From: Ceratodon purpureus
Lineage: Eukaryota; Streptophyta; Bryopsida; Pseudoditrichales; Ditrichaceae
Assembly (NCBI GenBank): GCA_014871385.1
Contig: CM026426.1
Location: forward strand, 97,676,861 to 97,740,860
Length of the DNA stretch: 64,000 nt
Direction of reading: 5' to 3'
Below, piece by piece: positions 1-57,730 of this stretch. Within the stretch, counting starts at the first letter, position 1; the number at the start of each line of letters is the position of its first letter. Under the pieces are notes generated by a model. The model was not told the origin of the DNA. It did no database searches and saw only the letters and a list, made by a program, of their open reading frames with translations. The translations under genes were made by a program, and so were the position numbers.

Positions 1-2256
1 ACTCCATTCGGTTGGTTAACGGGTTCAGTGCGTGGCATGTCACCACCAACATTGTCCACGGGTAACTCCTGATACTCATCATCCATAGTAGCAGGAGTAT
101 AATGAACTCCACCGTCGTCACCATCGCCTTCATTATCTACAACTCCGTCGTGGAATCCTTCATCTCCATCATCATCACATACGTCTTCATCGTACATGGC
201 TGGAACTTCTTCATCCGAGTCTTCGGAGAACGGTTGGTTCTCGTACCAAAGAACAGGATCCGCTCCACGTCGTTCTCGAAGGAGCTTACTGTTCGTGTAA
301 ATGTACACCAAGTCCTCTGCCTTCTTCACGGCCAATCGGTTGGGAACCTTACTGTGAACAAAGGAATACATGCTCCAATTTCGCTCACATGATGATGCCG
401 AGCATGTTAACGAAAGGATGCGCTTTGCTATCAAGGGCAACGCATCGCCCCTAACCCGCTGCCACCATTGATGAGGTAGCATCTTGGTCTGCCGAATGTT
501 TGGGGCCTCCAAAGGGCTGAATGGACCGGTGCGTTCCTCAAACTGTGTTAGCTCGAACAACACAGTATCGTGGTCCAGTTTAAGGGACTCACTCAAATGA
601 ATTAGCACTTGCAGGAGTGCACGCTTTGCAGCACTGCAGCACTCAATAGCTTGTGGCTCTCCGGGAAAATGTAGGGATTCAAAATGGCGCCTGCGTAATG
701 GAGATCTGTCGTAACATCATCTTCCATCTCTTCGTAAAATGTTTCTCAAAGCGCCCTGCTATAGCGGGGTCTAGGAAAAAAGGGTCACCCCGTAGACGGA
801 ACACATGCTTCTTCAAATTATTCATGGCCAACCATGCCCTCCCCATTGCTGGTGTTTGTCCATCAAAGGTCTTCAAGGTCACAACAGCCGGCTTCATAAC
901 ATGCATAAGATCCTCACAACGTAACCAAAATGTCTCATCGAGAATGGTACTCCGTACTTGACATGCTAAGGCGTGAGCTCGATACCCGTTTGACCGATTG
1001 AATAAAGTACCCACATATTCGTCCCATTTCGGATTGGCTACCACCTGGATTAGTGCCGCCCTCAGTTCAAGCAATCGAACAATCATCAAGTACTGGCATC
1101 CAAATCTTGTCTCCGCTGGTAACAACAAAGACAACTTTGGGCTGAATTGGCGAAACAAAGCCATGGTGACATGACGGCGACGTATAAAATTCGGTATGCG
1201 TTTTGCCAAGACAATCAGCTCTTTGAAGGTTGCTTCCTTCCCCCAATCTTCTAGTAAGAGGTCCATGATGTGAGCTGCACAACCTTGCTTGTAAATGTGT
1301 GGATAAGCTTCTACCACCTGGTCCATGGCTCCCAACATCGCACTAGCATTGTCAGAGCAAATCTGTACCACATTCTGCGGTCCAACTTCTTTGATGTACT
1401 CTTTCAATTTCCCAGCTATGTACGCTTTTGATTTCTTGTACCCCGTTGTATCAATGGAACCCAGGAATATATCTCCTGCTGGACACACAAGCATGACATT
1501 CATCAACGGCCGACAAACAACGTTGTCCCATCCATCCAAGCAAATAGTTGCCCCATACAAGCTAATACACTGCTTCGTTTTGTCCTCTATTTTCATCTTG
1601 AGAAGCTGCTTTGTTGGCTGGATGTGCTTGGTTTGCATTGCGTTGTACGCTGGTGGACGGTAGACAAAACCTGCTTTCGAGGTTGCCTCCACAGCTGCGA
1701 TGAAAGATTGATGTCTAACCACATTGAAAGGCACATTCGCTTCGTAAAAAAAGGACGCCCATTTCTCATCCAATTCATTGCGCTTTCCAATCTGATAGGC
1801 CTCGGTAAAACTTTGTTGCCGCATAGATCTTGGTGTACATGAATCGCCTCTGCTTAGAGGCGGAGTTGACTGAGACGGTTCAACTTGAGAAATCCTCTCC
1901 TCTTGGACCTCCTCCGTTCTTTGAGGCACTTCCGTAGATTGCTCAGCAGGCATAGATTGGCTAGAACATGGTGCCAAGTGTGCCTCGCCATCACCACCGT
2001 CAGTGCCGTAGATCTCCGCATGTGTCATTCTTTTTGGTATTACATTACCACAATTGGCAAAGCGCCTAAATACGGCGGTAGGGGCCTTGGTACAATGACT
2101 CTTGCTTGAACCTTCACCCCATCCATAGTGCTTCATAGCTCTTTGTTGTTTATAACGAAAAGTGAAATTGCACCACACACATTTAACATGGTCCTTATCA
2201 ATGAACGTCCACCACGGAGGCCACTCAGCCGTCGACTGACGCTGTTGACCTGCCAT
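1..2256 (-). pseudogene. hAT-family transposase (BED finger, DUF659, hAT C-terminal region), frameshifted and cut by the window edge
   Basis: Cut-and-paste DNA transposase of the plant hAT class. The ATG at 2256 opens a 525-codon frame. A BED-type zinc finger is visible near residues 12-44 (Cys26, Cys29, His43 after a WW pair). The DUF659 core follows, with the block CLDGWDNV, then CSDNASAMLGAM and GCAAHIMDLLLEDWGKE, which carry acidic residues of the RNase H-like fold. The frame stops at 679-681, but homology to the copy at 42-44 kb continues after two single-base shifts, near 681 and near 605. It then runs open to the window start through the hAT dimerisation block SSCERNWSMYSFVHSKV and an acidic tail. 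A TATA box and a GC-motif array lie upstream. The two shifts and the missing end make it a probable pseudogene. Its closest relative in the window is the truncated copy at 49.4-50.8 kb. Confidence 0.85.
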
Positions 2257-2453
2257 TCTTCGTGTCTCTCAAAAAGTACAATGATCTCCTCTCTGCAAGT
2301 GTTTGTATGACACATGTGAGAAAAAAATGGTATGTGTAGACATCAACCACAGGCCAATGTGATGCACATAGTCTCAAGCAAGGAGCCCACAAGGAGTTCC
2401 GGGACTAGAGGCCATGATTTCAAATGAAATTAGGCTTGGCCTAAGTTGGTGGC

Positions 2454-2460
2454 ATTTATA
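2454..2460 (-). promoter_or_regulatory. TATA box of the hAT gene
   Basis: On the minus strand the sequence reads TATAAAT. It sits about 200 bases before the ATG at 2256 and directly beside the GC-motif array. The same array-TATA-gene order recurs at other genes of these families in the window. Confidence 0.5.
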
Positions 2461-2467
2461 CTCGTGA

Positions 2468-2635
2468 GGGGGGGGGGGGGGGCGCGAGCTTCTCCAGGGG
2501 GGGGCGCGAGCTTCTCCAGGGGGGGGGGGGGGGGGGGGGGTGCGAGCTTCTCAGAGGGGGGGCGCGACCTACTGCAAGGGGGGGCGCGAGCTTCTGGAAG
2601 GGAGGGGGGCGCGAGCTTCTGTAAGGGGGGGAGGC
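2468..2635. repeat. GGGCGCGAGC motif array with long G runs
   Basis: About six units share the core GGGCGCGAGCTTCT and are separated by G runs of up to about 20 bases. The array lies immediately upstream of the TATA box of the hAT gene. The core is the reverse complement of GCTCGCGCCC, which builds the arrays at 4.6, 5.6 and 8.8 kb. It is likely a promoter or subterminal protein-binding array (inference). The long G runs could fold as G-quadruplexes and are prone to assembly error. Confidence 0.75.
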
Positions 2636-2785
2636 ACCCTTGTACAAGGGGCAGTCCCGGTGAATGGGCCATACAGTTTTTTAATTTTTTTTTAAAAACA
2701 TTTTTTCATTCCATTACAAAACCAACAATAGCATTTCATGTTCCACCGAGGCACGTATACGCCGAAAAAATGATTTATTAAAATA

Positions 2786-4428
2786 TTAGAAATGTGCAAA
2801 CAAGGCCACATAGGCAATCAAAATGTTCCAAACGTAAATCACTATGGAACTACAATGTGTATCTAAAACAACCATTGGGAGCTTGGAAGTTGTAAGGGGG
2901 GTCATCAAATCATTCACAACTTTTGCAAGTGAAAGCCTCTTTGCAGGATCTTCGTTAACCAAGCCATCCAACTTTGATGAGAATACAATCTTTGAGATTG
3001 AATCCTTGAAGAGTTCTGGGCATTCTTCTTCTCTCCATATCTTCTTTGCCAAATGGCCTACCAAAAATGCATCAGATTGCGTTGTACATGGATGCATCCT
3101 CTTCATGCGCTCCAAATTGCGTTCCTCATCATCTTTGTCGCCATATAAAAAGAACAACTCCGGTGCAACTCCTACCCTCCTCTCCTTTATTCGTACAAGA
3201 TCATCGGGGTTCCTCACACCATAAGGGGAGGCCTTCTTCTCAATGACTCTGCTTGCCATACCCAATCGCACACACCAATATATACTTTATCCTTGTCATG
3301 AGGTGGAAAGTGGAGTAGAATGTTGGATTGCGTTAAGTCGTTGTGGAGGATTTCAGCCTTATGGACTATGTCCATAACGTACCGAGGAATGTTGGCATGG
3401 AGTCTCATCTTCTTTCGATAAGCAACAATTCTTTGGCACTCTTCCATGGGCATTTCCCTCGACTTCAAAATTTCTTTGTAATTTGTTGCCTCGGTTGCCT
3501 TCTCATTTAATTTGAGGAAGTTGCGGAGGCAATCTCCATTCCACCACAGGGTATAAGCTTCCATGGTCTTGGAGTGAATGGCCCAAAATTTTATCACACC
3601 CGGATGCTCTACGAGGTTAACCGTGGCCTCAATCGCCCGTTGCTCTCGCTGCTCCACTTCAGTTTTAGCCTTGGAAAGTTTTCCCGCAAATTCGATGTGA
3701 ATTGGAATACGCTTCATATTGGCTATTCGCACTTTTCGCACTTTGCCATACCCCCCCTCGGCATTGAAGCCAGATAATGGCACAACTTTGGCCGTAACCG
3801 AAATCCATATCAGTGAACCATACATGTGTGCTTCCAATGCTTAATTCAACGCTTGCTCATTCCAAGGCATAATCTTTGTTTTCCCCTTGGAACATCTCTG
3901 ACATGCCTCTTGAACCGCTGTCAGTTTCTGAATAAACACTCTGTCTTGGTTGCTCCATTCTTCGCCTTGTGGTTTCTTCACATGTGATTCAAACACATGA
4001 ATGATATTTGTCGTAGCACTACTCACTTGTTGTGTCAACCACTTAGGGCTGTGAAAATACTTCGTCTTGCAATCCATGTAGAACTCTGATCCTTCCAATG
4101 CGCTCCAAAATTCCCTTTCCAAATCACGTTGGAGGTTGTAGATACCATTCTCTCCTTGATCAAGGTACATTGCCTTCATTATTCGTATGGTACAGGCCCT
4201 GTAGTACTCGACGGTCACCTTCCTGATGAAATGCGTATACTCCAATGGTGGATAACCATCATCCTTCTCGTGCGCCGCAATACTCTTCTTCTTTTTACCC
4301 TTCGAGCTAGATGAAGGAGTAGAACCAGTAGAACCATGAGGTCTTACACTACTCATAGGGTCCACCGCATCTGGAGCATCCAAGTCCTCATAGATAGGCC
4401 GCTTGCCGGAGCCTTGTCTAGAAGACAT
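2786..4428 (-). pseudogene. Non-RD protein-kinase-like gene with novel N-terminal domain
   Basis: The ATG at 4428 begins a Ser/Lys-rich segment (residues about 1-70), then an alpha-helical N-terminal domain that resembles the one in the kinase gene at 28.7-30.6 kb. An in-frame TAA at 3841-3843 (codon 196) interrupts it. The same frame then continues through a kinase N-lobe: glycine loop GGYGKV, lysine in EFAGK, the block TLWWNGDCLRNF, the catalytic loop HNDLTQSNILL and the magnesium motif CDWG. At the CDWG motif one G is missing (GGG where four are needed), so the C-lobe continues in another frame to 2786 (GVAPELFFLYG, DPAKRLSL). The catalytic Asp follows His-Asn instead of His-Arg, so the family is non-RD. 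With a stop and a frameshift this copy is probably inactive. An intron across the stop is possible but I saw no good splice sites. Confidence 0.75.
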
Positions 4429-4597
4429 CGCAAAGTAAATCTCTGAAAAAAAATCAACAACTCCCCCCCTCCCCCCCCCCCCCCCCCCCCCCAATGAAGA
4501 CTTCCCTCATAAGCAGTTCCAAGCAAGGCATGTTTTCACACGTCAGGACAAGGAGCCGCTGTGGAAAGGAGTGAGGGGGGCGAGAGATTCTCCCCAC

Positions 4598-4605
4598 CTT
4601 ATATA
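4598..4605 (-). promoter_or_regulatory. TATA box of the kinase-like gene
   Basis: The minus strand reads GACTATATAAGG, 170 bases before the ATG at 4428 and directly next to the motif array at 4616. The same GACTATATAAG string occurs at 5813-5822 in front of the divergent RING gene. The two genes therefore have matched promoters facing outward from a shared 1-kb spacer. Confidence 0.6.
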
Positions 4606-4615
4606 GTCCCCCCAC

Positions 4616-4761
4616 GGACCCGCTCGCGCCCCCCCTTGAACCCGCTCGCGCCCACCCTTAAATCCGCTCGCCCCCCCCTGTACCCGCTCGCGCCCCTAAA
4701 CCCGCTCGCGCCCCTACCCGTCCGCGCCCCCTTGACCCGTTCGCGCCCCTTCGGACACGCT

Positions 4762-4792
<31 letters not shown>

Positions 4793-4797
4793 CCCAC
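4616..4797. repeat. ACCCGCTCGCGCCCC motif array
   Basis: About eight imperfect units of ACCCGCTCGCGCCCC, 15-22 bases apart, end in a run of about 25 C. The array lies upstream of the kinase-like gene, and its orientation relative to that gene is opposite to the array in front of the hAT gene. Orientation therefore does not seem to matter. Confidence 0.8.
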
Positions 4798-4799
4798 CT

Positions 4800-5585
4800 T
4801 TTGTTTTACAACTTCTTTTTTTATTTTCTTTTTTTCTTCTGAAAATAGTCGAATCTCTACACTACTTTCTAAGAGAAAAAAATACAATAAATACTTAAAA
4901 AAACAAATTAAAAATAGAAACTCTGGGGCTTTTATACATGCACAACCTCTCATTCAGCTCTCTTCCACTCCATGCTATTGATTTAATTTTATTCCGTTTA
5001 TCTCCCAAACCAATTGCATCAAGCCCCTTCCCAACGGTTCTTTATATTTTTAATTATATGTTAGAGCATTGTAGGATCCGTATGTACAATGAAATATATA
5101 GATTGTTTTTTTAAACTCTAATCCAACTGTCTTCCACTCCGTGCTATTGATTTTATTTTATTCCCTTTATTTCTTATAATGTTTTATCTTTTTTAGTTTT
5201 CCACATCTCTTCTAATATTAATGTACTATTTTTTTGTGGTCAACATTATATTATTCATTGTGCATTAGATCATTATTCCGTTATGGCGTAACTCAGTTTC
5301 TAATCATCATGAGATTTATTCATCTTGATAACTTTTTTCATCCCATGTTATTCATCCCTTTTTATCCCGAGTCTCTTATTATAGTCATGATTTTTTTTAT
5401 ATAATTTGATATCTCATCCCCAAATTATTCAAATCAGTATTCCTTATATATTATTTCTTTGTAATATTTTTTTATTTTTTTTTATTTTTGAGACAAATGG
5501 TGAAAAAAATCCATTGCATTTCTTTGTATTATTGTCTTCCAACCTTCTTCAATGCTACTCCTAAGATTACAAAAGATTTTTTTAA
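4800..5585. other. AT-rich spacer, no gene seen
   Basis: An AT-rich, T-tract-rich spacer lies between the two divergent array promoters. I see no open frame with coding character. Two short stretches containing CTCTTCCACTCC-type sequence are partly repeated (around 4960 and 5125). Confidence 0.5.
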
Positions 5586-5589
5586 GGTC

Positions 5590-5812
5590 CAGACCCTCTC
5601 GCGCCCACCCCTGGACCCGCTCGCGCCCCCCCGATACCCGCTCGCGCACCCCTCTGAACCCGCTCGCGCCCATCCAAACCCGCTCGCGCCTCCCCCCCCC
5701 CCCCCCCCCTAAGCTGCTCGCGCCCCCCTCCCCCCCCCCCCCCCCAACCCATGCGCGCCCCCCCTAAACCCGGGCGCGCCCCCCCTGAACCCGCTCCCCC
5801 CCCCCCCCCTTG
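5590..5812. repeat. ACCCGCTCGCGCCCC motif array
   Basis: Nine or ten units of the same motif as at 4.6 kb are present, with long C runs between some of them. The array ends three bases before the TATA box of the RING gene. It is the mirror partner of the 4616-4797 array. Confidence 0.8.
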
Positions 5813-5814
5813 AC

Positions 5815-5822
5815 TATATAAG
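5815..5822 (+). promoter_or_regulatory. TATA box of the coiled-coil/RING gene
   Basis: GACTATATAAG lies right after the motif array and 340 bases before the ATG at 6156. It is nearly identical to the TATA box of the divergent kinase-like gene. Confidence 0.6.
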
Positions 5823-5877
5823 TGAAGGGGGCGCCCTCCCCCCCCCCACTTTTTAAGCTCCACCTTGGCACTCAGGC

Positions 5878-6038
5878 CTTGAACTACCTCGCGGTGGCTT
5901 ATTGCTGAGTACTTGGGTGGGGTCTACAGTATTTTGACAACGCCACGTACCTCTTTCAACCGTATTTTGTACGCTCATCCGGGAATTTGGGCCCTAAACT
6001 ACCTCACGGTGGCTTATTGCTGAATACTTGGGTGGGCC
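5878..6038. repeat. Direct repeat of about 43 bp in the leader
   Basis: A block containing ACTACCTCGCGGTGGCTTAT and then TGCTGAGTACTTGGGTGGG at about 5882-5925 is repeated with few changes at about 5998-6040. Both copies lie between TATA box and ATG, so they would be in the 5' leader or a leader intron. Confidence 0.65.
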
Positions 6039-6155
6039 ACAAAGTATAGTTAGAATACCATAATCAACCACGTAGGAAATTTGTAAAATCAATTAGGGGA
6101 AGTTTTGAGGAGTTGGTGTGTTTTTTAATACACAAAACTTTACCAGTACACCACG

Positions 6156-8534
6156 ATGGAGGGAAATCCAGCTCCGGCGGCGGAAACGCCACTCACCAAG
6201 GCGGAAAAGAAAAAAATAAGAGATCGTGAACGGAAGCGTGGTGGTAAGAAGATGAAGAAGCGGCTTCATGTGTTGAACAACCCGACGAAGTTGGCATTCA
6301 GAGGTTGGCAAGATGAGCCGGAACCGTGGAAATATTCCACATGCGAGGAATTCATTGAGTGGTGTCACATCACAAAAATATTTCCACACGATCGGCACAG
6401 AAATCACAGGATCTCTGACAAGGCTAACCTCTATTATTGCTTGAATGCGGAGTTTGTTGAACGTTCTATACAAGTTTACCAGAATCTATACAAGCAATCT
6501 TGTGTCGAACGCAATGAAGTACCATTGTTCATTTGCAGAATGGTGTATGCTGAGGTGGTGCTTCACAAAGTGGTGGATTGGTCCACCATCAAATCCACGA
6601 CGAGTGTTAGGGCGCCGACAGAGCGTGACATTCCCAAACAAAGGAAATACGCAGATGGTGGCCTTGGGAAAAGAATGAAGGTAAAAACACAAGTGCCGGA
6701 GCCTGCTACAGCAGAGTCAGAACCAGATTCTGATTCCGATGGTCGTCGTGGAGAAAGAGTGCCACGTAGAATTGCAGCACCAGCAAATATGGCTGTAGAG
6801 CCTCCAATGAACCATCCAGCGGACGTCATAGAACCTCACGACGATGCGAACATCATCTTTGTGGAAAACGATCCGAATACGGCAGCTAATTTGGAGGTGG
6901 TCGGAACTGAACCTACAATGGTTCTTGGCATGCCGGTTGTAGTTAGAAATGACCAGTCTAACCAAACCGAGGAGGTCGGGGAGTTGCAATTACAGGTTAT
7001 AGAAAAGGATGGCTTCATTGCACAGTTACAAGAGACCATCCGAAAACTACAATTGGAATCAGCAGCAAAAGATGCAGTAATATCAGATTTGCGCAATCAA
7101 TTGCAAGAACGAGAAAGACCTCAGTCTTCTCAAGCCAATGATATACCTGTAGTTCAGGATCCAATGTTGGTGGATGAATCTTACATCAACAACACAGTTG
7201 ATGTTGCAACGGCCGGTGTGTTGGAGAATATTTCCACACCAGCAAAACGACGACGAGTTGGAGTGATATTGCCTCCACCAGCTCCATACCCACGACCCTA
7301 TGTGGACATTGATGGACCATTAAGTCAAGATTCCTTGTCATTTCCACCCAATGCTCTAACATGAGAAGTGGAGACATTGATGAGAGCCAATAATGAATTG
7401 CGCCTCCTTGTTTCTAAGTTCGCTAAAGCATACTACGAGTGGAAAGTGGCAACCATTCTCAGCGTTGATCGCGGTCGCCAAATTGCATTAAAGTTCAAGA
7501 AGATCGACGAATCGTACTTGCAACACAACAGACGAAGGGATTTTGGCCTCACTTCATGGATTAACGCAGATGATATGTATCCAGATGACATGCCAATGCA
7601 AGAATTGAATCCTAAACTCATAGATTGGGCCCAGTTGGATTTCGATGTGGAGAACGCAACTTCGTGCCATGATCTTCAAATGAAGGAAGGAGTTGAAAGC
7701 AGAAAGCTTTGGCCAAATCCTCAACCGTGGGTGATGGATGGTGTAAAACAATGTATGGTATGTCTAAACACATTTGGTCCTTAGGGTGGATGGGCAGTTG
7801 GATCATGTACCCACATGTTCCATCCAATGTGTTTAATTAACATTTTTTTGGTTAGGAGATTTTGCCGGATGTGCAAATCCCCGTTCCATGAACGCTTGTA
7901 CGAGGTTTTTGGACTCACTCCATACATGCCACCAAGTCATGAGAGAAATCCCGAAAACACACCAGGTGAAGAGTACCGCAACATGTGGGGGGAAGATTTG
8001 ATTTGGAGTTGGCGGGCCCAGACTCACTCGGTCTTCAAGAGCAATGTAAGTGACGAGTTGGGGTGGGAGAATGACCCCAATCAGATTGTGAGGGTGGCAA
8101 AGAAGATAATTGGATCAAAGAAGGAGGACCAAGGGAAACGAAATTTTTTCTATCAGACTTTGAATGGATACTGGGATGCGAAGAATAAGAAGTTCCAACT
8201 TGGTACGCATCCAAAAGGCCTCATATGGAACAAGGAGGGGGAATTGGTTACAGACCTTGAAGGTTACAACACTCTGACCGCCCAAGATGCAGTCCAAATG
8301 TCTCTTTCGGAGTGGAAGTATATTTTCAAAAATGAAGCTGTTGACTTTCTTCTGGAGGAACACTCTCCACAGACATTGCGTACATTGAGAGAATTGAGGA
8401 ACTTGCAAATTTTGCGTTCTTTCAGTGAAACCGATGGCCCATTCCAGCGGACACGGACGAGAGCCAGGCGCACCTTGACGCTGGACGATGGAGCGGGACC
8501 AAGTGGCACAGCGGGAGTAGATGCAGATGAATAG
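6156..8534 (+). pseudogene. Coiled-coil/RING-H2 protein of the recurring gene set, two in-frame stops
   Basis: A 793-codon reading frame starts at ATG 6156 and is broken only by TGA at 7362-7364 and TAG at 7782-7784, both in frame. Order of parts: basic start; unrecognised N-terminal domain (about residues 30-145) ending in KVVDWSTIK; acidic linker; coiled coil (about 265-325); a block with KFAKAYYEWKVATILSVDR (about 415-475); a RING-H2-like finger from about 533 with CMVC, then SCTHMFHPMC, then CRMC; and a C-terminal domain with a basic tail. The TAG replaces a Glu that is kept in both other copies (GPEG, GLEG). A RING-H2 suggests ubiquitin ligase activity (family knowledge). Cellular target unknown. 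The kinase-like gene is divergent from the same spacer, which suggests joint function or joint mobility. Confidence 0.75.
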
Positions 8535-8805
8535 GAATAGTTACAACTTAGTACTAAGTGACTAGTTTTTGTATACTACAGTTTTTGTAATGTTTTGGTT
8601 TGAATTGGTAATGAAATGCTTTTATTTTCATAAATGTATACAACATTGCAAAGTCCATGTATTTTGGCTCACGAGTATCTCATTTTTTCTATGCTGAATT
8701 TACACATTTGTCACTGCGCTTAGCCCCAATATATTATTCTGATGGAAATGTTAGGTTTTTTTTCATTGTCAAAAATTTACTATATCTACAAAATGGGCCG
8801 CACAA

Positions 8806-8910
8806 AGAACCCGCTCGCGCCCCCCACTGAACCCGCTCGCGCCCCCCCTTGAACCCGCTCGCGCCCCCCCTGTACCCGCTCTGGCCCCCCCTACACATGC
8901 TGGCACCCCT
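8806..8910. repeat. ACCCGCTCGCGCCCC motif array, no gene attached
   Basis: Four to five units of the same motif follow the RING gene. The last units drift to CTGGC-type sequence. No TATA box or open frame follows on either side. It may be a relic promoter or the right end of the first gene group. Confidence 0.65.
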
Positions 8911-9029
8911 TTTGCATATGTGGAATTCCCCGTCATCGTTCGTTGTCCATGTCATCAATATGTTTCCCCTATAGGTAAGTTGTAAAAAAAAAAAACTAAC
9001 TTAGTAATTTTCCTCCTCCCCTCAATGTC

Positions 9030-9115
9030 CGATTATGTCCGGGGACCGACCGGTCCGTCTGTCCGTCCGTCTGTCCGTCCATGTTCGGAAATTTTGCCCA
9101 TGTCCGTCCGATAAG
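9030..9115. repeat. GTCC/GTCT tetranucleotide-like tract
   Basis: A short tract of GTCCGTCT units with several nearby ATGTCCG words. Simple-sequence repeat, no gene. Confidence 0.6.
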
Positions 9116-9143
9116 ACAACCCTGTACGTTACAATACACTACC

Positions 9144-11014: not shown

Positions 11015-11019
11015 GCTAT

Positions 11020-12500: not shown

Positions 12501-12509
12501 ATAACTCTA

Positions 12510-44394: not shown

Positions 44395-44429
44395 GCCTGC
44401 GACAGAAAGCAAGAATCTGGAGGGTGAAC

Positions 44430-46556: not shown

Positions 46557-46559
46557 AAG

Positions 46560-47100: not shown

Positions 47101-47122
47101 TAGTGTTTCAACGAACAATATC

Positions 47123-47470: not shown

Positions 47471-47639
47471 CGCTAAAATGCAGTCAAAGTGTCACGTTTC
47501 AACGAGCCGTTGCCGCTATGCGAAGTGGAAGATAATGCACCGATTCCTAGAACGACCATGAAGATAAAGCAAGTGTAGCATAGTACGCCAGTCCATTTGA
47601 TGGGAGGCGAACCGGGATATGTTGCCGGACATCGAAATT

Positions 47640-47985
47640 CGATATGCGTCGGACCCGAACTCAGGTCGGAACTTGACAGTCGAAGGTACGATGTCAGGAT
47701 AGTGGCCGAACCAGGGTCCAAGGACGAGGAGTGCAAGAGAATGTAGCGGACTTCATCGGAGCCGACAGCAATCGGATGGCGGATAAGCGCATTGAGGGAT
47801 GCCGAAATGCGGACGAGATCACCAAGGCCCGTCGGACGACGGGGCATCGATCCGGCGGAAAGCGGATGTCGGATCGGACATCGGATTGGGTATCGGATCG
47901 TGCAGGGTGGCGCGGACGAAGCGGACAAGTACTGGGGCCCACCAGTATCAGACCACCTTTATCGCAGACGTGGACATCGGCTGTC
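47640..47985. repeat. TCGGAC-type motif array
   Basis: GTCGGAC, ATCGGA, GGCGGA and GCGGAC words recur, with a dense ATCGGA series at 47865-47900. It lies upstream of the F-box-like gene. Confidence 0.6.
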
Positions 47986-48451
47986 CGAGGTGCCGCCAGG
48001 GCGGAAATGTAAAAGTGAAAATGTTGCCGTATATATTCGGGCCGTCGCGATAAAGACCAAATGGGACGTCCGGTCGTGACTGTAAACCGTTGTGACATCC
48101 CGACATTATGACGCGAGAGGCTCACGTCGCGACCGAATAGAAAACCCTACACGGCACGTGTAATTTGGCAATACGTACACTTTGAAGGCAAACTGACGTC
48201 TGGGTTTTTACAAACGAGTGAAACCAAGGAATCACTGCACCAAATATCCCGATAAATCAGGCAAATCACTTCAGTGAACAGATCCTAATAACTCGGGTTT
48301 CTCTTTTACTGTATTTACCTCATCAGTAACAAAATATTTTTTCCGTGGTAACTTTCAAATTCACCTAGATGACTCCGCTGACTTGGCGAGGTAGTTCCAC
48401 CGTGGCAATGGGTTGCGACACTCACCCAGTCCTACGTGGAAAATGTGCCAA

Positions 48452-48551: not shown

Positions 48552-49411
48552 TTCCATGTCCAACTTCTTGTAGTGTCCGCTCCGTGGTATGCCGTGCACA
48601 TGTTGCCGCGGTTGATCTTTGCCGCAATTTTTGCAGTTGCAAAATCCTCCGATGCAATACCCAAATCTGGAATGATTTGAATATCTTGGTTTTCCTTGTA
48701 TACGTATGCCACACAAGGATCCACCTAGTATCGCCTTCTCAAAATCTCCTCCATCTGATGGGCTCTCTCAAAAAACAAGGGCGACCTTCTCGGCTCATCT
48801 ATCTTCGTCATGAAGCCCCCATCACAAACCCCGATGTAGATCTTGGACTCATCTTCCGGAAAGTGAAGTAGGATGTTGTCTAGTGACAAATCATTGTGGA
48901 GAAAACCATATTTGTGCACCGCATCCATGATGTTACACAATGCCCAAGCAAACTCTGTACTCTTACTTTGGAAAAGTCGGAGACGCTTTCCTTGTATCAG
49001 ACTGTCCTCTGGATTCCTACTGAAGGTGTAGTGGATGTGGAGGTTGTGCGAGGCCTCATGGTCTCTTTGTAGCATGTCGTGGAGGGTCCCGTCGTTCCAC
49101 TATTACATGTATCCAATATGTTCCCTCTAATGAATGGCCATAAAGCGAATGACACCATGATGGGGAATTCTTATCGCAAGTGATTCGTTGTTGTGGTCCA
49201 CGCGTGCCAAATCCGGCCTCATAGACCAATTGAGTGGCCGTTTCTTAGCAAACTCCCAAGCAGGATAAGTTTCAGAGTTTAACTCGATGCTAACTCTACA
49301 TATGGTTGCATAACCACCTTTTTGAATTTTTTTGTCCAAGTAATGGACAATTGCGTTGTCAGACAACACAGTCAAATTTCGTTTGCGTAAGTTGATCTCA
49401 CTTTGCTGCAC
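48536..49411 (-). pseudogene. Kinase-like gene remnant fused behind a truncated hAT gene
   Basis: One frame runs from 49411 to 48536 without any shift but with four in-frame stops: TAG at 49127, TAA and TAG near 49100, and TAG at 48725. Visible parts: glycine loop KGGYATICRV, EFAKK at the lysine position, HHGVIRFMAIH, WNDGTLHDM, AWALCNIMDAVHKYGFLHND, then NILLHF. The magnesium motif reads CDGG where the other copies have CDWG. The N-terminal domain is absent. The sequence starts directly at the break in the hAT gene, so a deletion or rearrangement joined the two families here. Confidence 0.7.
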
Positions 49412-50811
49412 GCATCATCACGGATTGTTTGACGCACTAGGCTTGCGCGTGCATGATTACGCACCCCCTCGATTTGGTTGAATAGACCGTCGACATACTC
49501 GAACCACTCCGATGCCATGACCACTTGCTCCAAAGCAAATTTAACGTCGATAAGGCGCTCTATCATCAGATAGTTACAAGCGAATCTGGTTTCAGCGGGA
49601 ACCACCAAGGACAACTTCGGTTCAAATTTGCGGAAAAGGGCCATGGGAACATGATGTCTCCGAATGTAATGACACACGTGTTTAGCTTTGGCGACCAAAT
49701 CCTTCACAAAGCGTTCTTTGCCCCAGTCCTCCATAAGAAGATCTAGAATATGGGCACAACATCCCTGCTTGTACATGTGAGGATACTCCTCTAGGATATT
49801 ATCCATGGCGCCAAGCATGTTGCTTGCATTGTCCGTACAAATCTGGACAACATTCTGAGGGCCAATTTCTCGAATATACTTCTTCATCTCCCCCGCAATG
49901 TATCCCATTGACTTCTTCTCGCCAGTCGTATCAACAGACCGAAGAAATACATCGCCTGCCGGACATACTAGCATGACATTCATCAACGGTCGGCAATTCA
50001 CATTATCCCAACCATCGGAGCAAATGGTAGCCCCGTATAACTCTGTCGACGTTTTCGTACGTTCATCAATCTTTGCCTTGATTTGCTTCTTTTTTTCCTT
50101 GATGTGCGTTGTTTGCATCGCGTTATAGGAAGGGGGATTGTAGTCTAATCCGGCAGCCGACGTCGTGCTCACTGCCTTTATAAATGTTGGGTGCTTGGCC
50201 ACGTTGAATGCGACATTGGCTTCGTAAAAGAAGGATGCCCACAACATGTTCAGCTCCTTTCGCTTGGAGATCTGGAGTGCTTCACTCATGTCCTGTTGCC
50301 GCAAGCTCCTAGTGGTATTCAAACCAGCCCTACTAGGTGCAGCACTGGAGACATTTCGGTCCTCGTCGGTATCATTGTACGAGGGTTCGGATCCACCGTA
50401 CAGAGTGCCGTGTGTGGAAGCACTAGAACACGGACGTTGAACTGACGCGGGGAATGTTGGCCTCATACCATCCATCTCCTCCTGTGTCAAAGGGCCGGGA
50501 ACCTTTCCACCGCAAAACTGAAACTTCCTCTTCACTACGGTAGGTGCCATTTGGCATACCCTTGAGAGATTGGGCTGGTCCCAACTATAATGCTGTAGGC
50601 ACCTTGATGTCACGTACGAAAGCTTGTTCCAGCAATACACACATTGGGCTTCCTTAATTGACAGTGACCCTTCCTTGAGCTTGACCGTAAACCATGGTGC
50701 CCACTCTCTCGTACCGAGACTCGGAACGGCTCTAGCCGGTGCAACCGCTTCAACCGGATCCATAGTGAATGATTTGGAAAGTCTCCGGACTAATAGCCCG
50801 CAATTGGGCAT
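49400..50811 (-). pseudogene. hAT-family transposase, 3'-truncated
   Basis: The ATG at 50811 (or 50763) opens about 470 codons without a stop. BED finger with CVYCWNKLSYVTSRCLQHY, Ser/Thr-rich linker, DUF659 with ICSDGWDNVNCRPLMNVMLV and ICTDNASNMLGAM, then GCCAHILDLLMEDWGKE and ETRFACNYLMIERLI. Homology to the copy at 0.7-2.3 kb ends after VRQTIRDD at about 49412, where kinase-like sequence begins. The C-terminal dimerisation region is gone. Apart from this truncation it is the best preserved of the three hAT copies. Confidence 0.8.
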
Positions 50812-50828
50812 GGTGTTTCACACATTGG

Positions 50829-51074
50829 GCATAGTGTTTTAAGAGGGGAAAAAAAAAACAAAATAAAAGAGTGTAGGAGTATTAAATAGAAAATAAGGGG
50901 ATAGGATGGGGGAGTGGTGGAATCAGAAAAATGAACGGGCGAAATGAGAGAAGGAATTAAATGAAAGCATAGTGTTCTAAGAATGGGAAAAAAAAATCAA
51001 AAAAAAAATTACTGAGTGTAGGAGTATTAAATAAAAATAAGGGGATAGGATGGGGGAGTGGTGGAATTAGACAA
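50829..51074. repeat. Tandem duplication of about 105 bp in the hAT promoter
   Basis: The block from GCATAGTGTTTTAAGAGGGG through GGATGGGGGAGTGGTGGAAT at 50829-50930 recurs at 50967-51074 with small changes. Each copy contains an AT-rich stretch (TTATTTAA-like on the minus strand) that could act as TATA box for the hAT gene. Confidence 0.7.
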
Positions 51075-51099
51075 ATTATTTCAGTGATCTTGTTGGAGT

Positions 51100-51473
51100 G
51101 CTCGGGCGCGTGCAAAACGGGCGTGAGCACTGACGGGCGCGGGCGCGTACGAGCGCGTGCAAATGGAAAGAAGGAGTTTGACGGGGGAAATTTGTTGCAT
51201 GATATAGTTCCAGTGCTCGCGCGCGTGCAAAGACGGGCGCGAGCAGTTGGGGGCAAGAAAAACGCGAGAGACATTGTGGAGGGGGAAATTAGTTCCCTGA
51301 TTCGGAATCCGTGCACCCGCCCGTGGCACGACGGGCGCGATCAGTACACGCGTGCGCGTACGGGCTTGTGCAAATGGACAGAGGGAGTTCGAGGAGAGAA
51401 ATTAGTTGCATGATATGGTTGCAATGCTCGCGCGCGTGCAATGACGAGCGCGAGCAGAACACGAGAGACATTG

Positions 51474-51504
<31 letters not shown>

Positions 51505-51690
51505 AGAATGAGTTTCTACGATTCGGTATCCGTGCGTGCGCTGTTGGTTCGACGGGCGCGAGCAATTCGCGCGCGCGCGTACGGGCGCGTTCTTGTGTTC
51601 ACAGAAGAGTGTTCTCGCTGGGGACTAGTGTGCGCGCGCGCGGGGGCACGCACACTACGGGCGCGCGCAAACGCGCTCGTGCATGCGAGC
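51100..51690. repeat. GGGCGCGAGC/GCGCGTGC motif array
   Basis: About 20 units of GGGCGCGAGCA and GCGCGTGCAA, in both orientations and mixed with ACGGGCGCG, lie upstream of the truncated hAT gene. A G run of about 27 bases sits at 51477-51504. The core is identical to that of the arrays in the first gene group. Confidence 0.75.
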
Positions 51691-51699
51691 GAGTTCAGG

Positions 51700-52100
51700 G
51701 TTTAAATCCACGTAACATAAAATTCAGTCCATACCTTAAATACACTTACCATAACTTCAGTTTTCTTACGGTGACTTAAATCCACTGACCATATTAAACA
51801 TTTTGGTGTGCACCAGAGTTATTTATACACTTATCATACGATGGAAGGAGAAGAGACAACGGACGAAATGAACAACATGTTTGGCAATGAAAATACGAGA
51901 GACCAATGTAGGAAGAATAAAAGCGTCTTGGGAACCACGACAATGATTCCGGAAAGAAAATTAACATCCATTGTTTGAGTTTAACAAACATTAAACATGT
52001 GAATGTAACCCTAAACCTATCCAATTCCCTATGCCTTCTACATGTACTTATATTCCAAAATCTTTTTACAAAACGTGGTCTTCACTCATGGATCTCCACG
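51700..52100. other. No gene seen
   Basis: AT-rich spacer between the motif array and the end of the interrupted RING gene. Nothing coding recognised. Confidence 0.4.
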
Positions 52101-53085
52101 ACGTCACGTGCCCGGTGCAGAGGAACTCGATCCACCCTCATCGTGTCGTGCACGAGAGCTCCCCGCTGCACTACTTTTTGCCCCATCGCTAGCGATGAGT
52201 TTCCGCTTCGCAGAACGGGTTCTCTTCGCTATGCCATCTCCTCCATGCATTGCTACTATGAAGTTGCAATCGCGCATTCGACGGAGCACTGTAAGGGTGT
52301 TCGGACTATGTTGCGCGCATAGGAAATCCACGGCTTGACCTTTGAACAATGTATCCCATTTAGATTCCACGGTCATCAAGTCATTAGCGATCTAGAATTC
52401 CTCTTTATTCATTTCGTGCAACTACTTGTACTGATCCGCAACCGGTTGCCCTTTGGAATTCCACCTAAATCCAAGAGGATGGGCGCCGTACTGGAATGTA
52501 TTGGTATGAACATCCCAGTACCCTCGTAGCACTTGGTAGAAAAAATTCCTCCTTCCTCGAGTTTGTCGTCTGCTCGCCCCTGATGAGTTCGTGGCAGATC
52601 CTTACAATCTCCGCAGGATCCTGGTCCCACCTCCACTGCGCGCTCATTTCACAAGCATAGGTCTGGTGCATTCCCATAAGCCAATTCCAAATCAAGTCCT
52701 CACTTCACTTGTCCGGATAGTCAGGAGTATTTTCCTTATTTTGCTCCCAATGCGGTGGCATGCAAGTCGCTAAGCCGAACTGCTCATAAAAACGCTTGTG
52801 TAAGGGGGCCTTACATATTGCACACCACCGACGTATCATGGCATGGGAAATCAAGCATTGTGGATGGTACATGCACTGACAGGATCCCAATGACCAGCCA
52901 CCCTCTAGCCCAAACGGATTGCAACAAACGGGACACTTGGTTCCATCCAACACATACTTCGGTGGATTGGGCCAGAGCAATCTTGGCTGTATAGTACTAT
53001 TCTCAGGGATCTTCTCATTAGATTTGGCGGTCTTGTACTCCCACTCCAACTGCGTCCAATCTATTGCCCTACCAATCATCCACTA

Positions 53086-55504
53086 GAGCAGAACAGTGTC
53101 CAAAGTGACGTTGTTTAACGCGGTTTTTAACACGGTTTAACGCAGTTTAACGTGGACAGTTTTTTTGACGGAAAAATGGCAAAAAGGTCACGGACGTCGC
53201 ATTGGTTTGACGTGCTGCGTCAACCTTATGTTAAACCGTTTAACAGGAGTTGACGTTATGTTAAAAGTGACGCAAACACAGATTATGGAAGTTACCCAGG
53301 GTAAGTAACTTTGAGAGTAAGTTTTTTGCCACCTGAGCAGTTCCTTCCTTTTTGCATTCCACGTTGCATGTGACATGGACATTTCCCAATGTTAATTAAT
53401 TCCTGGTCAGGTATGACGTGGGCAAGGCTCCGTCGTCCTGATGGATGAAAAAAATTCTGATGTGGCATGGAAATCTGACGTGTCATTTAGGTTTTCAATG
53501 GCCTAGATTGTGACAAGTGGAGTGATCGTGGATTGAAGATATATTTTCGCATCAAATTTGGGATTTGTATTATTTTGTGTTTATGTAAACGCAGTGTGAC
53601 GTGTTTTGGAAGTGCGTCTTGGACGTTAACTTTGACACTGTTTGATGCTGATAAACACATGTACCACTTATTTTAACGCGTTTACGGAAACGTCTTTAGA
53701 CGTAGGATGATGTCTGCCATGTCAATAGTGACGCATTCAATTTGAATTTTTTGTCAAAAGAAACACAATGTAGTGTTCAACTTGACGCTGATAAACACAT
53801 ATGTCACATATTTTAACGCTTTTCGGAAAACGATTTTAGATGTAGGATGACGTAATGTAAGGGGTTGCTCATGCTGGATCCTCCTTAATCTACACACCCC
53901 ACATCACTGTGCTCACGGTGAGTTCATAGCAACACATCATTCAAGGAACAAGGGAAGAATGGAGACAAGAAGAAGATGGAGAACAAAAATAAAGTTAGGA
54001 GAAACCCCAACCCCCCTCTCCCCCCCCCCCCCCCCCCCCCCCCCCCCGGATTTTATTGAAGTACCTTTTAGTTTATAGGTCGCCATTACTCCATCCTTGA
54101 TTGGATTACGGCGTGCCTTAGCTTTTTGGAAAGCTAAGTTGATTGTGCATCTACCCTCAAAATCTCAAGATCATAAGATCAAAATTCAAAGACTGATTGC
54201 TAAAAATCCGAGACCCTTCTCCCAGCCGCACTCCTTTGACAACCCCAACTTTGGTAGGCGATATCTCACTCCCTATAACTTAGAATTGGACGTGCTTACT
54301 ACCATTGGAAAGCCCTACAAGAGATCTACAATTCTTTCAAATCTCAATCTACTTGAACAAGAAACGAGGGACTGATAGGGAAAACAATGGGAGACACTCT
54401 ATGGAGTAAGAAGAAAACACAAAAAGCTTGAAAACAAGCTCTCAAATACAAGATAAGAAGCCGCCGAAGTGGCGGCTCACCCTAACGCTAAACCTAGGCT
54501 TAAAGCCCTAATCTAAGACCTTCATAGATGAATGTTTCCACCAAAGAATGAACAATGGAAACATGAGTTAACGTGTACATCACCAAAATCCTAGCCGCCA
54601 CGTCAGCCATAGCCTCTACGCACATCTGACACGTCAGCTATGAGATTACGTTTCTTGAAATACAATTTAACGCAATTTATGTCACTTCAAACGCGTGTGT
54701 CACTATTGACACCCCCTAGGATGTTGACCAAGTCAAACCATAGCTGCCACGTCAATCACGGCCTCCATGCACATGTGACACGTCAACTATGTCAATATGT
54801 TTCTTGAAACACAGTGTGACGCATTTTTATGTCACCCAAAACGCGTGCGTCATTACTAACACCCCCTAGGTTGTAGACCAGGTCATAACCTAGCCGCCAC
54901 GTCAGCTCTAACTTACACGCATAGGGGACACGTAAGCTATATCAATATGTTTCTTGAAACACAGTGTAACGCATTTTTATGTCACCCATAACGCAGGCGT
55001 CACTATTGACACCCTCTAGGATCCGAAACCTACGTTCCAGGTCAGCCGTATCCTCCACGCCTTTGTTCCAAGTCAGCAGGGCATTCCACGTAGGATCTGT
55101 TAATATGTTTTTAGTAACATAGTTGAACGTTTCCGATGTCACCTTAAACGCCCTCTATGTTAAAAGAAACGTGTTGACGTGGGATGTGACTAAATTTAAC
55201 CATTAAAAAACTATTGTGAGGTAAAAAACTCTCCAAAAAAGTTACTTTCCACAATGCAGATTTATATTTAAGCTGACGCGATGTCACTCATGTTGTTATT
55301 TTTAACACTGAACCGTCACTTCAAAATTCAAGTTGACACTCTTTGACAGAAGCCGTTAAAGCAACGTCAAAAGTGACGCGTGCACGTTAAAACCTTTAAC
55401 GTGCAGTATGTTTATTTGGATCACATTTCCACACTAATTTCCATAAATCCAGGTTTATTTTTCTGATGACGCAGTTTAACGCAGGACAGAATGCTGTGCT
55501 GCTC
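53086..55504. mobile_element. 2.4-kb inserted element with GAGCAG terminal inverted repeats
   Basis: The RING gene is split between its EWKIA-type block and its IDW block. At the break points the sequence reads TA|GAGCAGAACAG on the left and CTGTGCTGCTC|TA on the right, giving short terminal inverted repeats and a TA duplication. The interior holds many GTTTAACG-type words near both ends, a C run of about 29 bases at 54019 and a triplicated unit of about 150 bp. No transposase is recognisable. The TA target suggests a Tc1/mariner-like or related superfamily, but the family is uncertain. Confidence 0.6.
54590..55020. repeat. 150-bp tandem repeat inside the inserted element, three copies
   Basis: The units end in CACCCCCTAGGATGTTGACC or a close variant at about 54710, 54861 and 55010, and share ATATGTTTCTTGAAACACAG and GCATTTTTATGTCACCC. 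Spacing is about 150 bases. Confidence 0.75.
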
Positions 55505-57368
55505 TAATGATCAGTATTTCGTCAGGGAACATTTCATCTGGAACTGCCCACGAGGTAAGTCCAATATCTCTCTTGGAGTTAAGCTTGAGGTAGTCGCGGT
55601 CAATCCTCTTGAACTCATTGTACATCTGTCTGTGACGGTCAACATTCAGAATGCATGCAATCTTCCATTGGTAGTATTGTCTGCTCATCTGGATCAGATA
55701 CGCTTTGAGCATCCCGTTGGTGGCTTGCAATTTGGAGACAGTGGATACCGCTGACTGTTGAAATCCCAAAGAGTCCTCCGTCTCTTGAGAATCCACGAAC
55801 ATGATTTGCCGCTGGAAGGGGTGCATCACTTGACTGGATGATGCGAATGGGATGATTGGCTTAAGGGGAACTCGGACCCAGGGAATCTTCCAGGAGACCG
55901 TGCATGGCCAATTCAATGATGGCATTCACGTCTTCCATGTTAATTCCAGGGCTACCAGGGATTGGAGCCTGGCTCACCTCGGGTACGTTAATCGGACTCT
56001 TTGCAGCTTTAAGTTGCTCAATCTCTTCATTCTACTTCCGGATAATCTCATTCATCCTATCAGCTTCGGCGTACAAGTTCTAGATAGTCTTCTCCATCTT
56101 AGAAATCAACGCATTTTTTACTTCCAGCTCATTACGCAATGCGTTGCCTTGCAGGCCTTCGGCATCATCCCCGGTTAATGTAGCCTCCAACTCAATTGCA
56201 AACCTAGCAACATCATCTTCCATTACATTGCTCGGGTCAGCAATGTGTGGATTCAATACAAGAGGAGCTACATCAACATTGCTCGGGCCCGCAATCTGTG
56301 GAATCAATATGGAAGGAGCTACATCAACATTGCTTGGGCCTCCAACAATTGCTAGAGGAGCCTGATGAGCAATACCCACCCCAGTAGGATTTGCAGGCGG
56401 TGCACGATTCCTCGTCGACAAACACGCAGCTAGCTCAGGATCCTTCTTTTTTAACCGTGTGATTCTAGCATTAGTCGCTGATTTTGTTTGTCACTGAGCA
56501 AGACGGTCTAGCGTACCATCAGAATCATTATCCGATTCTGAGTCACTCCACTCAAGAGGCGCAGGATCCTCGGGATAATCCAAGTATGCCCAGTCCACAC
56601 CTGGAAATCTTCGGATTTCTGTATGTATCACCATCTCTCGTGGACGCCGCTGGACGCTAGGAGTCTACCATTTGGTCCTCTAATCCACCTGCCAATGAAG
56701 CATTACCTCGGCATAAACCATTCTACAGATCAAGAGTGGAATCTCGTTTCTCTCGTTGATCGCCTATCTATATAGAACCTGGTATACCTCCAAACACCGC
56801 CTCCCAAACTGACAGTTCTTGCACCATTTCATGTTCGCCTTGTTTGAAGTACGATTTTGTTTATGGCGATGCAACGGGAAAACTTCCCAATGTGGCACCA
56901 TTCAATGAATTCTTCACACGTTGCTAGACTCCACATTTGCAGTGCGGCTTCCCACCCTCTGAATGCCAGCTTTGCATGATTCATTAAGACGTGAACCCTC
57001 TTAGGTTGGAGGTTTCCATGCCTTTTCCGGCCTGCATCCTTTTGATTTTTCCTCTATTCTGCCTCCGTGGGCGGATTTGGTCGTTGCTGTTCCATCTCTG
57101 CTCGAGGTAGATCGTTCTTCGAAGTCGTCCAAAAGTGCAAAATTAAAAGCCTACGACTACCCCAAAACCTCAATCACATTTACAAATTATAAACATTTAC
57201 AATATTTTCAAATGTACCACACAACCACCATAGAGTTTTGAAGAATATAAGCGATAACAAGTGTGAAAGTGCTGGGACCCACCGGAGTACCAAGCAATGA
57301 GCTACCCGGAGGCTGTTGAAGGCGAGGTGCTCAAAGGGGGGGAGTGCAAAATGAGGGAGCGGATCGCC

Positions 57369-57376
57369 CTTTTATA
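57369..57376 (-). promoter_or_regulatory. TATA box of the third RING gene
   Basis: The minus strand reads GACTATAAAAGGGCG, about 275 bases before the ATG at 57095 and directly against the motif array. Its GACTATA start matches the TATA boxes at 4.6 and 5.8 kb. Confidence 0.65.
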
Positions 57377-57730
57377 GTCACGAGCGCCAGGGAACGGGCG
57401 CGAGCAAAGACCCTACGGGCCTGCGCGGGCACCGAAGGCGAGGTTTCGGCCGTGTATACCTTCGCGCCCGCGCAAGTATCAACAGGCGCGTGCGGTTCCC
57501 ATGGCGGGTATATGACGGGCGCGAGCGAGTTTTATCGCGCGAGCGCAGGTATCGACCCGGTCTTCATCAGGCGCGAGCGGATGTCGTCCTCGTATCAAAG
57601 GGCGCGCGCGCGGATGTCGTCGCGGGCGCGCGGATATTGATCGGGCGCGACCATCGGGCGCAATCGCTGGATGAACAGGCGCCAGCAGTAATCCAGGACG
57701 GGCGCGCGCATTCTCGATAACGGGCGCCAC
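57375..57730. repeat. GGGCGCGAGC motif array
   Basis: About 14 units of GGGCGCGAGC, AGGCGCGAGC, GGGCGCGCGC or GGGCGCGACC, spaced about 25-30 bases, lie upstream of the third RING gene. Same core as the first gene group. Confidence 0.8.

Follow-up and report, generated by a model that had tools for sequence, protein, structure and literature searches.

Three families of hAT transposons in the moss Ceratodon purpureus carry a predicted non-RD kinase and a coiled-coil RING protein together with the transposase

hAT elements are the textbook single-gene cut-and-paste transposons. Larger mobile units are found among the fungal Starships (changing cargo plus a tyrosine recombinase) and the Mavericks/Polintons (viral genes), and the VANDAL transposases belong to a Mutator-like superfamily. 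The Ceratodon purpureus elements described here resemble Starships and Mavericks/Polintons as large units with genes besides the mobility gene; they differ in having a small constant gene set and a hAT transposase. With Ac, Tam3, hobo, Hermes and the plant hAT elements they share the DUF659 and Dimer_Tnp_hAT domains, short inverted ends and 8-bp target-site duplications (TSDs). In a survey of plant and green-algal hAT elements (PMC6027215), the longest consensus is 7,144 bp (Gulliver of Chlamydomonas), and no hAT sequence was found there for the moss Physcomitrella. Compared with the usual hAT layout (one transposase gene in a few kb, up to ~7 kb in plants), the Ceratodon units have three genes in 10.9 to 23.5 kb and a transposase of ~1,100 aa. 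The Arabidopsis VANDAL elements (PMC10398659, PMC5735166) are likewise DNA transposons with accessory anti-silencing genes; the comparison is one of function and not of relationship, and VANC proteins are sequence-specific binders whereas the accessory genes in Ceratodon encode a kinase and a RING protein. A literature search, with the main Ceratodon genome paper outside its scope, found no multi-gene hAT carrying both a kinase and a RING gene.

The window (the whole stretch of 64,000 nucleotides analysed) lies on the V chromosome, the male sex chromosome, of C. purpureus (110,524,308 bases). All nine hAT, kinase and RING gene copies of the original prediction were found, with some borders shifted, and eight of the nine are members of three large hAT DNA transposon families. 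Each unit in each family encodes a hAT transposase (~1,080 to 1,150 aa), a non-RD kinase (~520 to 640 aa) and a coiled-coil RING protein (~790 to 1,110 aa). Unit sizes are 10.9 to 11.7 kb (family 1), 23.5 kb (family 2) and 15.2 kb (family 3). The gene set is common to the three families even though protein identity between them is only ~23 to 49%. The single family of multi-gene mobile elements proposed earlier thus holds as to multi-gene mobile elements; the families are three, related to each other. The hAT and RING genes of each family are present in dozens of genome copies, so the nine copies in the window are not a chance finding. The window copies are decayed: compared with intact copies, eight of nine frames (a set that includes ORF313 of family 2) have 1 to 10 in-frame stops, and the only one free of stops, the family-1 hAT, is frameshifted. 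A Pfam scan of 18 frames, ORF313 not being among them, found no tyrosine-recombinase captain, polB or capsid domain. A long inverted-repeat element is also present at 16.5 to 25.0 kb, with no convincing target duplications.

The family-1 element (10,887 bp) runs from -1762 to 9124, its left end lying beyond the window, which holds 1 to 9124. It is flanked on both sides by the 8-bp TSD TACGTTAC (-1770 to -1763 and 9125 to 9132) and is colinear, at 89 to 94% identity, with a complete copy on contig C4 (12215135-12226856). The hAT gene (1 to 2256, minus strand, reading on to -1017) encodes DUF659 and has a frameshift near 670 to 700. The non-RD kinase gene (2853 to 4428, minus strand) has frameshifts near 3262 and 2900 and one in-frame stop; the coiled-coil RING gene (6156 to 8534, plus strand) has two in-frame stops and 93% identity to a 793-aa open frame in the C4 copy. 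The right terminal inverted repeat (9085 to 9124) reads CAGGGTTGTCTTATCGGACG inward and abuts the TSD at 9125 to 9132. A GC-rich minisatellite of ~22 bp is found within the element at 4618 to 4795, with sister arrays at 2468-2631, 5593-5806 and 8807-8892.

The family-2 copy (28536 to 48148) is truncated at 28536, where its left end is missing, and its right end is exact except for the last base. Relative to the 23,450-bp C4 reference it lacks 729 bp at 45806/45807. Its three genes, all on the minus strand, are the kinase (28691 to 30612, 92 to 93% to a 644-aa C4 open frame), the coiled-coil RING-H2 protein (31381 to 34673, 86 to 87% to a 1107-aa frame) and the hAT transposase (41152 to 44394, 94% to a 1081-aa frame). 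The right terminal inverted repeat at 48109 to 48148 (AGGGTTTTCTATTCGGTCG...) has its terminal base changed. ORF313 was considered as a fourth gene of this family and dropped because its dN/dS of 1.02 is neutral-like. ORF417, a frame with RING-like sequence (E 6e-7 against RING3), was seen in one family-2 copy only and matched no family in the Pfam scan.

The family-3 copy (49384 to 58475) is left-truncated within the hAT gene and has lost its own kinase; its right end is exact. What is left of the hAT gene is the N-terminal part (49384 to 50796, minus strand). The RING gene (52107 to 57095, minus strand) is interrupted and has 10 in-frame stops, and the right terminal inverted repeat at 58436 to 58475 has the sequence CACGGTTGTCATAATAAACGGACGG. 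Between the family-2 and family-3 copies lies a decayed kinase of a fourth type (48596 to 49321, minus strand), outside both adjoining elements. It has internal stops and 27 to 33% identity to the three family kinases; a relative (84% DNA identity) is found near the C4 family-1 copy. For these reasons the third gene group of the window, to which this kinase had been assigned, is not one three-gene element, while in other family-3 copies the three genes do form a single element. The gene groups as originally drawn were therefore partly wrong, although every gene copy in them is real: whole-element alignment gives other borders, and the hAT gene at 42 kb, which had been set apart from the kinase and RING genes at 28 to 35 kb, belongs with them to the one left-truncated family-2 element.

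Complete three-gene units with inverted ends and perfect 8-bp TSDs were found in each family, which shows that the kinase and RING genes move together with the transposase: the window and C4 copies of family 1, a C4 copy of family 2 and a C2 copy of family 3. When the C2 copy and one TSD were removed in silico, the retroelement that had received the insertion regained one continuous reading frame, at least 1,228 aa long. Perfect TSDs were present in five of 10 further copies, which makes nine of 14 copies with nine different sequences, a tally without the family-2 and family-3 copies of the window, which are truncated. In the other five, one end was not found (four copies) or the flanks differ (one copy). 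Three of these five are the further family-1 copies, none of which gave matching TSDs (one end not found in two, differing flanks in one). The shared termini and target duplications proposed as a check on complete groups are present, and gene order, previously read as a sign of shuffling or of separate units, is a property of each family.

Assignment to hAT is supported by DUF659 in the transposases of all three families (Pfam, E 5.6e-32 to 3.2e-37) and by Dimer_Tnp_hAT, which scores above its cut-off in the family-2 and family-3 proteins; the scanned family-1 piece stops short of that region. Sequence comparison of hAT3 with PDB gave no significant match. The terminal pattern of plant hAT elements is [T/C]AGNGNNG (PMC6027215). 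The family-1 end CAGGGTTG fits it, the family-2 end CAGGGTTT is off at the last letter and the family-3 end CATGGTTG at the third. Beyond the region of hAT homology the transposases have a tail of ~380 to 480 aa that is rich in acidic stretches. Family-2 copies on C4, C11, C12 and C13 are 98.9 to 100% identical in sampled stretches, and 601-base kinase-3 stretches on C3, C5, C13 and at a second C2 site are identical to the reference; such near-identity indicates probable recent movement of these family-2 copies and kinase-3 loci.

Genome-wide, hAT and RING positions are not independent. In family 2, 66 of the 90 RING2 loci listed have a same-strand hAT within 30 kb (permutation mean 2.4, maximum 8), none has an opposite-strand hAT alone, and 46 of the 66 pairs are 10.0 to 11.5 kb apart. 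A hAT lies within 20 kb at 32 of the 57 RING1 loci listed (permutation mean 0.6, maximum 4) and at 30 of the 52 RING3 loci listed, all on the same strand (mean 0.5, maximum 4). Among the matches listed, 24/90 RING2 and 43/109 hAT2 loci have no same-strand partner within 30 kb, and 25/57 RING1 and 22/52 RING3 loci have no hAT within 20 kb. The kinase adjoins hAT in 30 of 30 family-1 loci fetched (among at least 82) and is present in 10 of 10 family-3 loci, so that it is in place in all 40 examined. RING was found at the predicted spot in 18 of 20 family-1 copies and in nine of 10 family-3 loci. Among the matches listed, RING1 is on all 13 large contigs and RING2 and RING3 on 12 each.

In the kinase alignment HND replaces HRD and DWG replaces DFG, with no R before the catalytic D; the family-2 kinase has HCD. 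The G, K, E, HND, N and DWG columns are kept in 25 relatives except for three single cells. The protein is a predicted non-RD protein kinase with the catalytic K, E, HxD, N and DxG residues present. Its model has a mean pLDDT of 78; PDB matches numbered 1,492 at E <= 0.001, the 50 best being protein kinases by title (one is titled phosphotransferase). A sequence search of the PDB yielded nothing stronger than a weak match to a kinase (E 0.009). Database relatives amount to 40 proteins, two from Ceratodon itself, and include no named plant gene from elsewhere. One relative sits on a contig of 2,043 bases that the database assigns to a Bacilli MAG. Pattern-matching stretches in GTDB genomes (24) and viral contigs (14) yielded no confirmed kinase relative. 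For RING2, the first homologue search returned one protein. The eight zinc ligands (C3H2C3) are kept in 10 of 13 rows, those that reach all ligands; in two of these 10, as in RING3, one ligand H is replaced by C. The RING Pfam scores are below the curated cut-offs, the model is poor (mean pLDDT 53) and a fold search against PDB gave 24 rows, most of them RING domains and none significant, so the ubiquitin ligase activity of this protein is putative.

Selection was estimated with a simple counting approach that left out stop codons and took the partly decayed window copies as reference, giving dN/dS of 0.28, 0.38 and 0.41 for hAT (families 1, 2 and 3), 0.52 and 0.32 for the kinase (families 1 and 2) and 0.37, 0.58 and 0.59 for RING (families 1, 2 and 3). 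Fisher p was <= 0.012 for each of the eight comparisons. When RING2 was compared with three other loci on C6, the signal was weaker (0.66, 0.70 and 0.92). These estimates indicate that the kinase and RING genes are under purifying selection. Their divergence between families tracks that of hAT, and for each of the three genes it is families 1 and 3 that are nearest to one another. Together with the retained catalytic and zinc-binding residues, this argues that the three-gene set was probably co-inherited and not repeatedly captured.

Autonomous multi-gene hAT transposons, with the kinase and RING proteins as selected accessory products, are in our judgement very probably the best explanation. 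Separate single-gene units, clustered by a common chromatin preference or by tandem or segmental duplication, would suit a window on a repeat-rich sex chromosome with an unrelated decayed kinase between two elements (48.6 to 49.3 kb). The narrow RING-hAT spacing with near-constant orientation, the shared termini, flanked by a different TSD at each site, and the dispersal over 12 to 13 large contigs leave this next to no probability, and the TSD-bounded complete copies refute it for the three families. The two genes might also be passively captured host genes, a Pack-type cargo without a role. DNA transposons can internalise host genes (PMC5718144 discusses cargo genes), and both the neutral-like ORF313 and the highest RING2 value at C6 would fit. 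We regard passive cargo as improbable: Pack-type pieces are recent, unselected and vary from copy to copy, whereas here the set is constant, and both genes recur across three families with deep splits between them, diverging together with hAT and under purifying selection. Among the 40 database relatives of the kinase, which share its catalytic pattern where aligned, there is also no named gene from a plant elsewhere, and none was confirmed in the GTDB genomes or viral contigs searched.

Under the multi-gene transposon reading, the transposase would move the whole three-gene unit by cut and paste, and selection would have retained the kinase and RING genes as boosters of the element's own spread. 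They are most likely accessory anti-host or transposition factors. The proteins would most likely phosphorylate and ubiquitinate those host proteins by which the element is silenced or repaired; the ubiquitin and phosphorylation pathways of the host are plausible putative targets, which suggests a selfish element shipping host-manipulation tools. Less likely, the two proteins would regulate the transposase itself. Action on the transposase (activation, turnover or control of overproduction) in place of host defence would agree with the origin of all three proteins in one unit, and the acidic hAT tail could be a substrate. Within families the RING gene changes faster than the hAT gene (0.37 to 0.59 against 0.28 to 0.41), a weak indication that host-directed conflict fits somewhat better, and we hold regulation of the transposase to be rather unlikely. 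More tentatively, and with slightly less than even confidence, the elements may represent an old multi-gene hAT lineage, widespread in mosses, whose dedicated phosphorylation-plus-ubiquitination module would disarm host silencing or DNA-repair control, with the non-recombining U and V sex chromosomes serving as a store of old copies. If so, a cut-and-paste transposon would behave more like a small endogenous parasite that is equipped with effectors.

A hAT lineage retaining a kinase and a RING gene through deep divergence would be a natural experiment on the host functions that a transposon depends on or has to block, and the small gene set makes gene-by-gene testing feasible in moss. On the Ceratodon sex chromosomes some fragments of these elements carry host-gene annotations, so the numbers of genes given for these chromosomes may include genes of transposons. 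The two examples are KC19_VG094700 and M758_UG149200 (175 aa each), which are 91 to 92% identical to the family-3 kinase.

The hAT transposase, the non-RD kinase and the coiled-coil RING protein are co-mobile, as the original prediction had proposed as one possibility for the kinase and RING genes: whole units flanked by perfect 8-bp target-site duplications were found in three related large hAT transposon families (families 1, 2 and 3). The predicted coordinates of all nine gene copies in the window were borne out by Pfam and by alignment to intact copies. Each of the three hAT copies has a Pfam match to DUF659 (hAT). The Pfam similarity of the first kinase to protein kinases and of the second RING copy to RING fingers is weak and does not reach the curated cut-offs; the remaining gene copies were confirmed by comparison with intact copies. 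In a test set beforehand, the proximity of RING and hAT genes was far above chance in each family.

In family 1, full comparison of the window copy (-1762 to 9124, the negative position lying left of the window start; 10,887 bp) with a copy on contig C4 (12215135-12226856; 11,722 bp) revealed one colinear unit with 89-94% identity. The window genes are oriented hAT (-), kinase (-) and RING (+). Both copies have inverted ends CAG(G/A)GTTGT, and each is flanked by a perfect 8-bp duplication of its own, TACGTTAC for the window copy and GCGCGGAC for the C4 copy. The C4 copy has open frames for hAT (1,094 aa) and RING (793 aa) and a kinase with one frameshift. For the hAT1 frame at 679-2256, at least 82 copies with approximately 95% identity were listed (82 scored out of 1,237 first-look candidates). 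The kinase adjoins hAT1 in 30/30 loci fetched (300 nt or more; window locus counted). RING was at the predicted place in 18 of 20 further minus-strand hAT1 copies, picked by rank order with C1:4295362 skipped; the nineteenth has element DNA there and the twentieth nothing. A listed hAT1 is found within 20 kb of RING1 in at least 32 of 57 RING1 loci, 29 of the 32 oriented like the window copy (permutation mean 0.6, maximum 4 in 1,000). Matching duplications were found in none of three further copies whose ends were fetched (one end missing in two, differing flanks in one). Arrays of a GC-rich minisatellite of about 22 bp are located between the genes (2468-2631, 4618-4795, 5593-5806 and 8807-8892). 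At C11:11133404-11152916 family 1 copies form an inverted pair with the RING ends facing each other, and close inverted hAT1 pairs are also present on C7 and C3; local or paired transposition is possible.

The window kinase (28-31 kb), RING (31-35 kb) and hAT (41-44 kb) are colinear with one family 2 unit of 23,450 bp on C4 (10866903-10890352), which has ends CAGGGTTTTCTAT(G/T)CCGTCG and the duplication ACTAGCGG. Its genes, all on the same strand, are a RING-like frame (417 aa), kinase (644 aa), RING (1,107 aa) and hAT (1,081 aa). The RING-like frame (L038:306-1556 of this reference; E 6e-7 to RING3) may have arisen by duplication of the RING gene. In the window, the family 2 copy is truncated on the left at 28536, and its right end is at 48148. 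Four further copies (C11, C12, C13 and a second C4 site) are 98.9-100% identical to the reference in the stretches sampled; three have both ends and matching duplications, and one end of the fourth was not found. Among the matches listed, hAT2 lies within 30 kb of RING2 on the same strand, upstream every time, in at least 66 of 90 loci (10.0-11.5 kb away in 46 of the 66 pairs), and allowing either strand added no pairs. On the large contigs, either strand, 62/83 were observed (permutation mean 2.4, maximum 8).

The family 3 copy on C2 (1813096-1828308; 15,213 bp) has ends CATGGTTGTCATAATGGAC, the duplication CATCTGGA and open kinase (522 aa), hAT (1,148 aa) and RING (867 aa) genes on the same strand. 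Its host site is presumably an LTR-retrotransposon gag frame; removal of the element and one duplication in silico joined the flanks into one open frame of 1,228 aa or more. In the first ten minus-strand hAT3 copies that lie on large contigs and have frames of 1,000 aa or more, not counting the reference, the kinase is in place in all ten and RING in nine; the stretch fetched for the tenth is element DNA immediately beyond the RING gene. Of three further copies, two are flanked by matching duplications, and one end of the third was not found. A listed hAT3 lies within 20 kb of RING3 in at least 30 of 52 loci, on the same strand in 30/30 (permutation mean 0.5, maximum 4). In the third predicted group, hAT and RING indeed belong to family 3 (49384-58475), but the kinase does not: this copy is truncated within hAT, its own kinase is therefore gone, and the kinase at 48596-49321 is of a decayed fourth type. 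Such a kinase of the same kind suggests one or more additional element families. About 1.7 kb outside the C4 family 1 copy lies a relative of it (84% DNA identity).

The kinase and RING genes are constrained, as judged from substitution counting between window and intact copies. The dN/dS values are 0.28, 0.38 and 0.41 for hAT (families 1, 2 and 3), 0.52 and 0.32 for the kinase (families 1 and 2; the window has no family 3 kinase) and 0.37, 0.58 and 0.59 for RING, all eight below 1 (p from 0.012 to 2.5e-10). ORF313, an extra family 2 frame without homologues, served as control (1.02). Against three other C6 loci RING2 gave 0.66, 0.70 and 0.92, and short kinase 2 stretches at two of them gave 0.28 and 0.33. 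Across 25 aligned kinase relatives, only three single cells deviate in the columns of the glycine-loop G, lysine, glutamate, H-N-D, N and D-W-G. RING ligands are intact in 10 of 13 aligned rows, those reaching all ligands; two rows have C for H at one ligand. The kinase model has a predicted protein kinase fold with an additional N-terminal helical part; the RING model was poor and a fold search with it found nothing significant.

The hAT transposase would move the whole unit by cut-and-paste, and the kinase and RING would work for the element itself. That they are passive cargo is quite improbable. We lean slightly toward host targets (silencing, repair, cell cycle); action on the element's own transposase is a less likely alternative. 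In mode of action, the nearest precedent for a plant DNA transposon with accessory genes directed against the host is VANDAL/VANC (PMC10398659, PMC5735166), which is no relative of the moss elements.

In common alignments, families 1 and 3 resemble each other most in all three genes: hAT (46.7% vs. 34.2 and 37.7% identity for the other pairs), kinase (49.2 vs. 33.1 and 32.9%) and RING (41.7 vs. 26.7 and 23.4%). Because the three genes diverge in step, a single three-gene ancestor would best explain the families, which is suggestive and not proof with three taxa only. Scoring the best 8,000 candidates by shared words in each search, we found at least 38 kinase relatives with 29-69% identity across the aligned part, in addition to two entries from Ceratodon, and at least 12 RING relatives, one 93% identical to RING3; a separate search added one more. 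The three-gene lineage is probably wider than Ceratodon purpureus. One kinase relative, filed under a Bacilli MAG (2,043-base contig), is taken for mis-binned DNA; neither the prokaryote nor the viral sequence collections searched yielded the kinase.

The window (G000:C6:97676861-97740860) belongs to the V (male) sex chromosome, since C6 (110,524,308 bases, 30% of the 362-Mb assembly) matches in length the contig that carries the kinase relative named KC19_VG094700; its near twin M758_UG149200 is on a 112,179,120-base sequence. An excerpt of a commentary (PMC9273592) gives Ceratodon sex chromosomes of 110.5 and 112.2 Mb with about 80% repeats in the order U, V; the protein names instead assign 110.5 Mb to V. 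With intact autosomal queries, C6 holds 18-19% of listed loci (RING1 10/57, RING3 10/52). With decayed window queries its share among matches listed is 60% for RING2 (54/90), 53% for hAT3 (47/89) and 68% for hAT2 (74/109); hAT1, also queried with the window copy, runs contrary to the trend with just 26% (21/82 listed). Older copies may persist on V, a hint only because listed loci were chosen by similarity to the query.

Elsewhere in the window, long inverted repeats at 16477-25012 (arms approximately 16477-17079 and 24411-25012, blocks 78-94% complementary) enclose open frames in an interval of about 7.4 kb. This is probably a further DNA element; a search for its target duplication found none convincing. 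Minus-strand open frames at 10553-14122 look, by eye, similar to an FCP1-like phosphatase. A tandem array of units of about 138 bp with poly-A tracts is found at 60252-61161.
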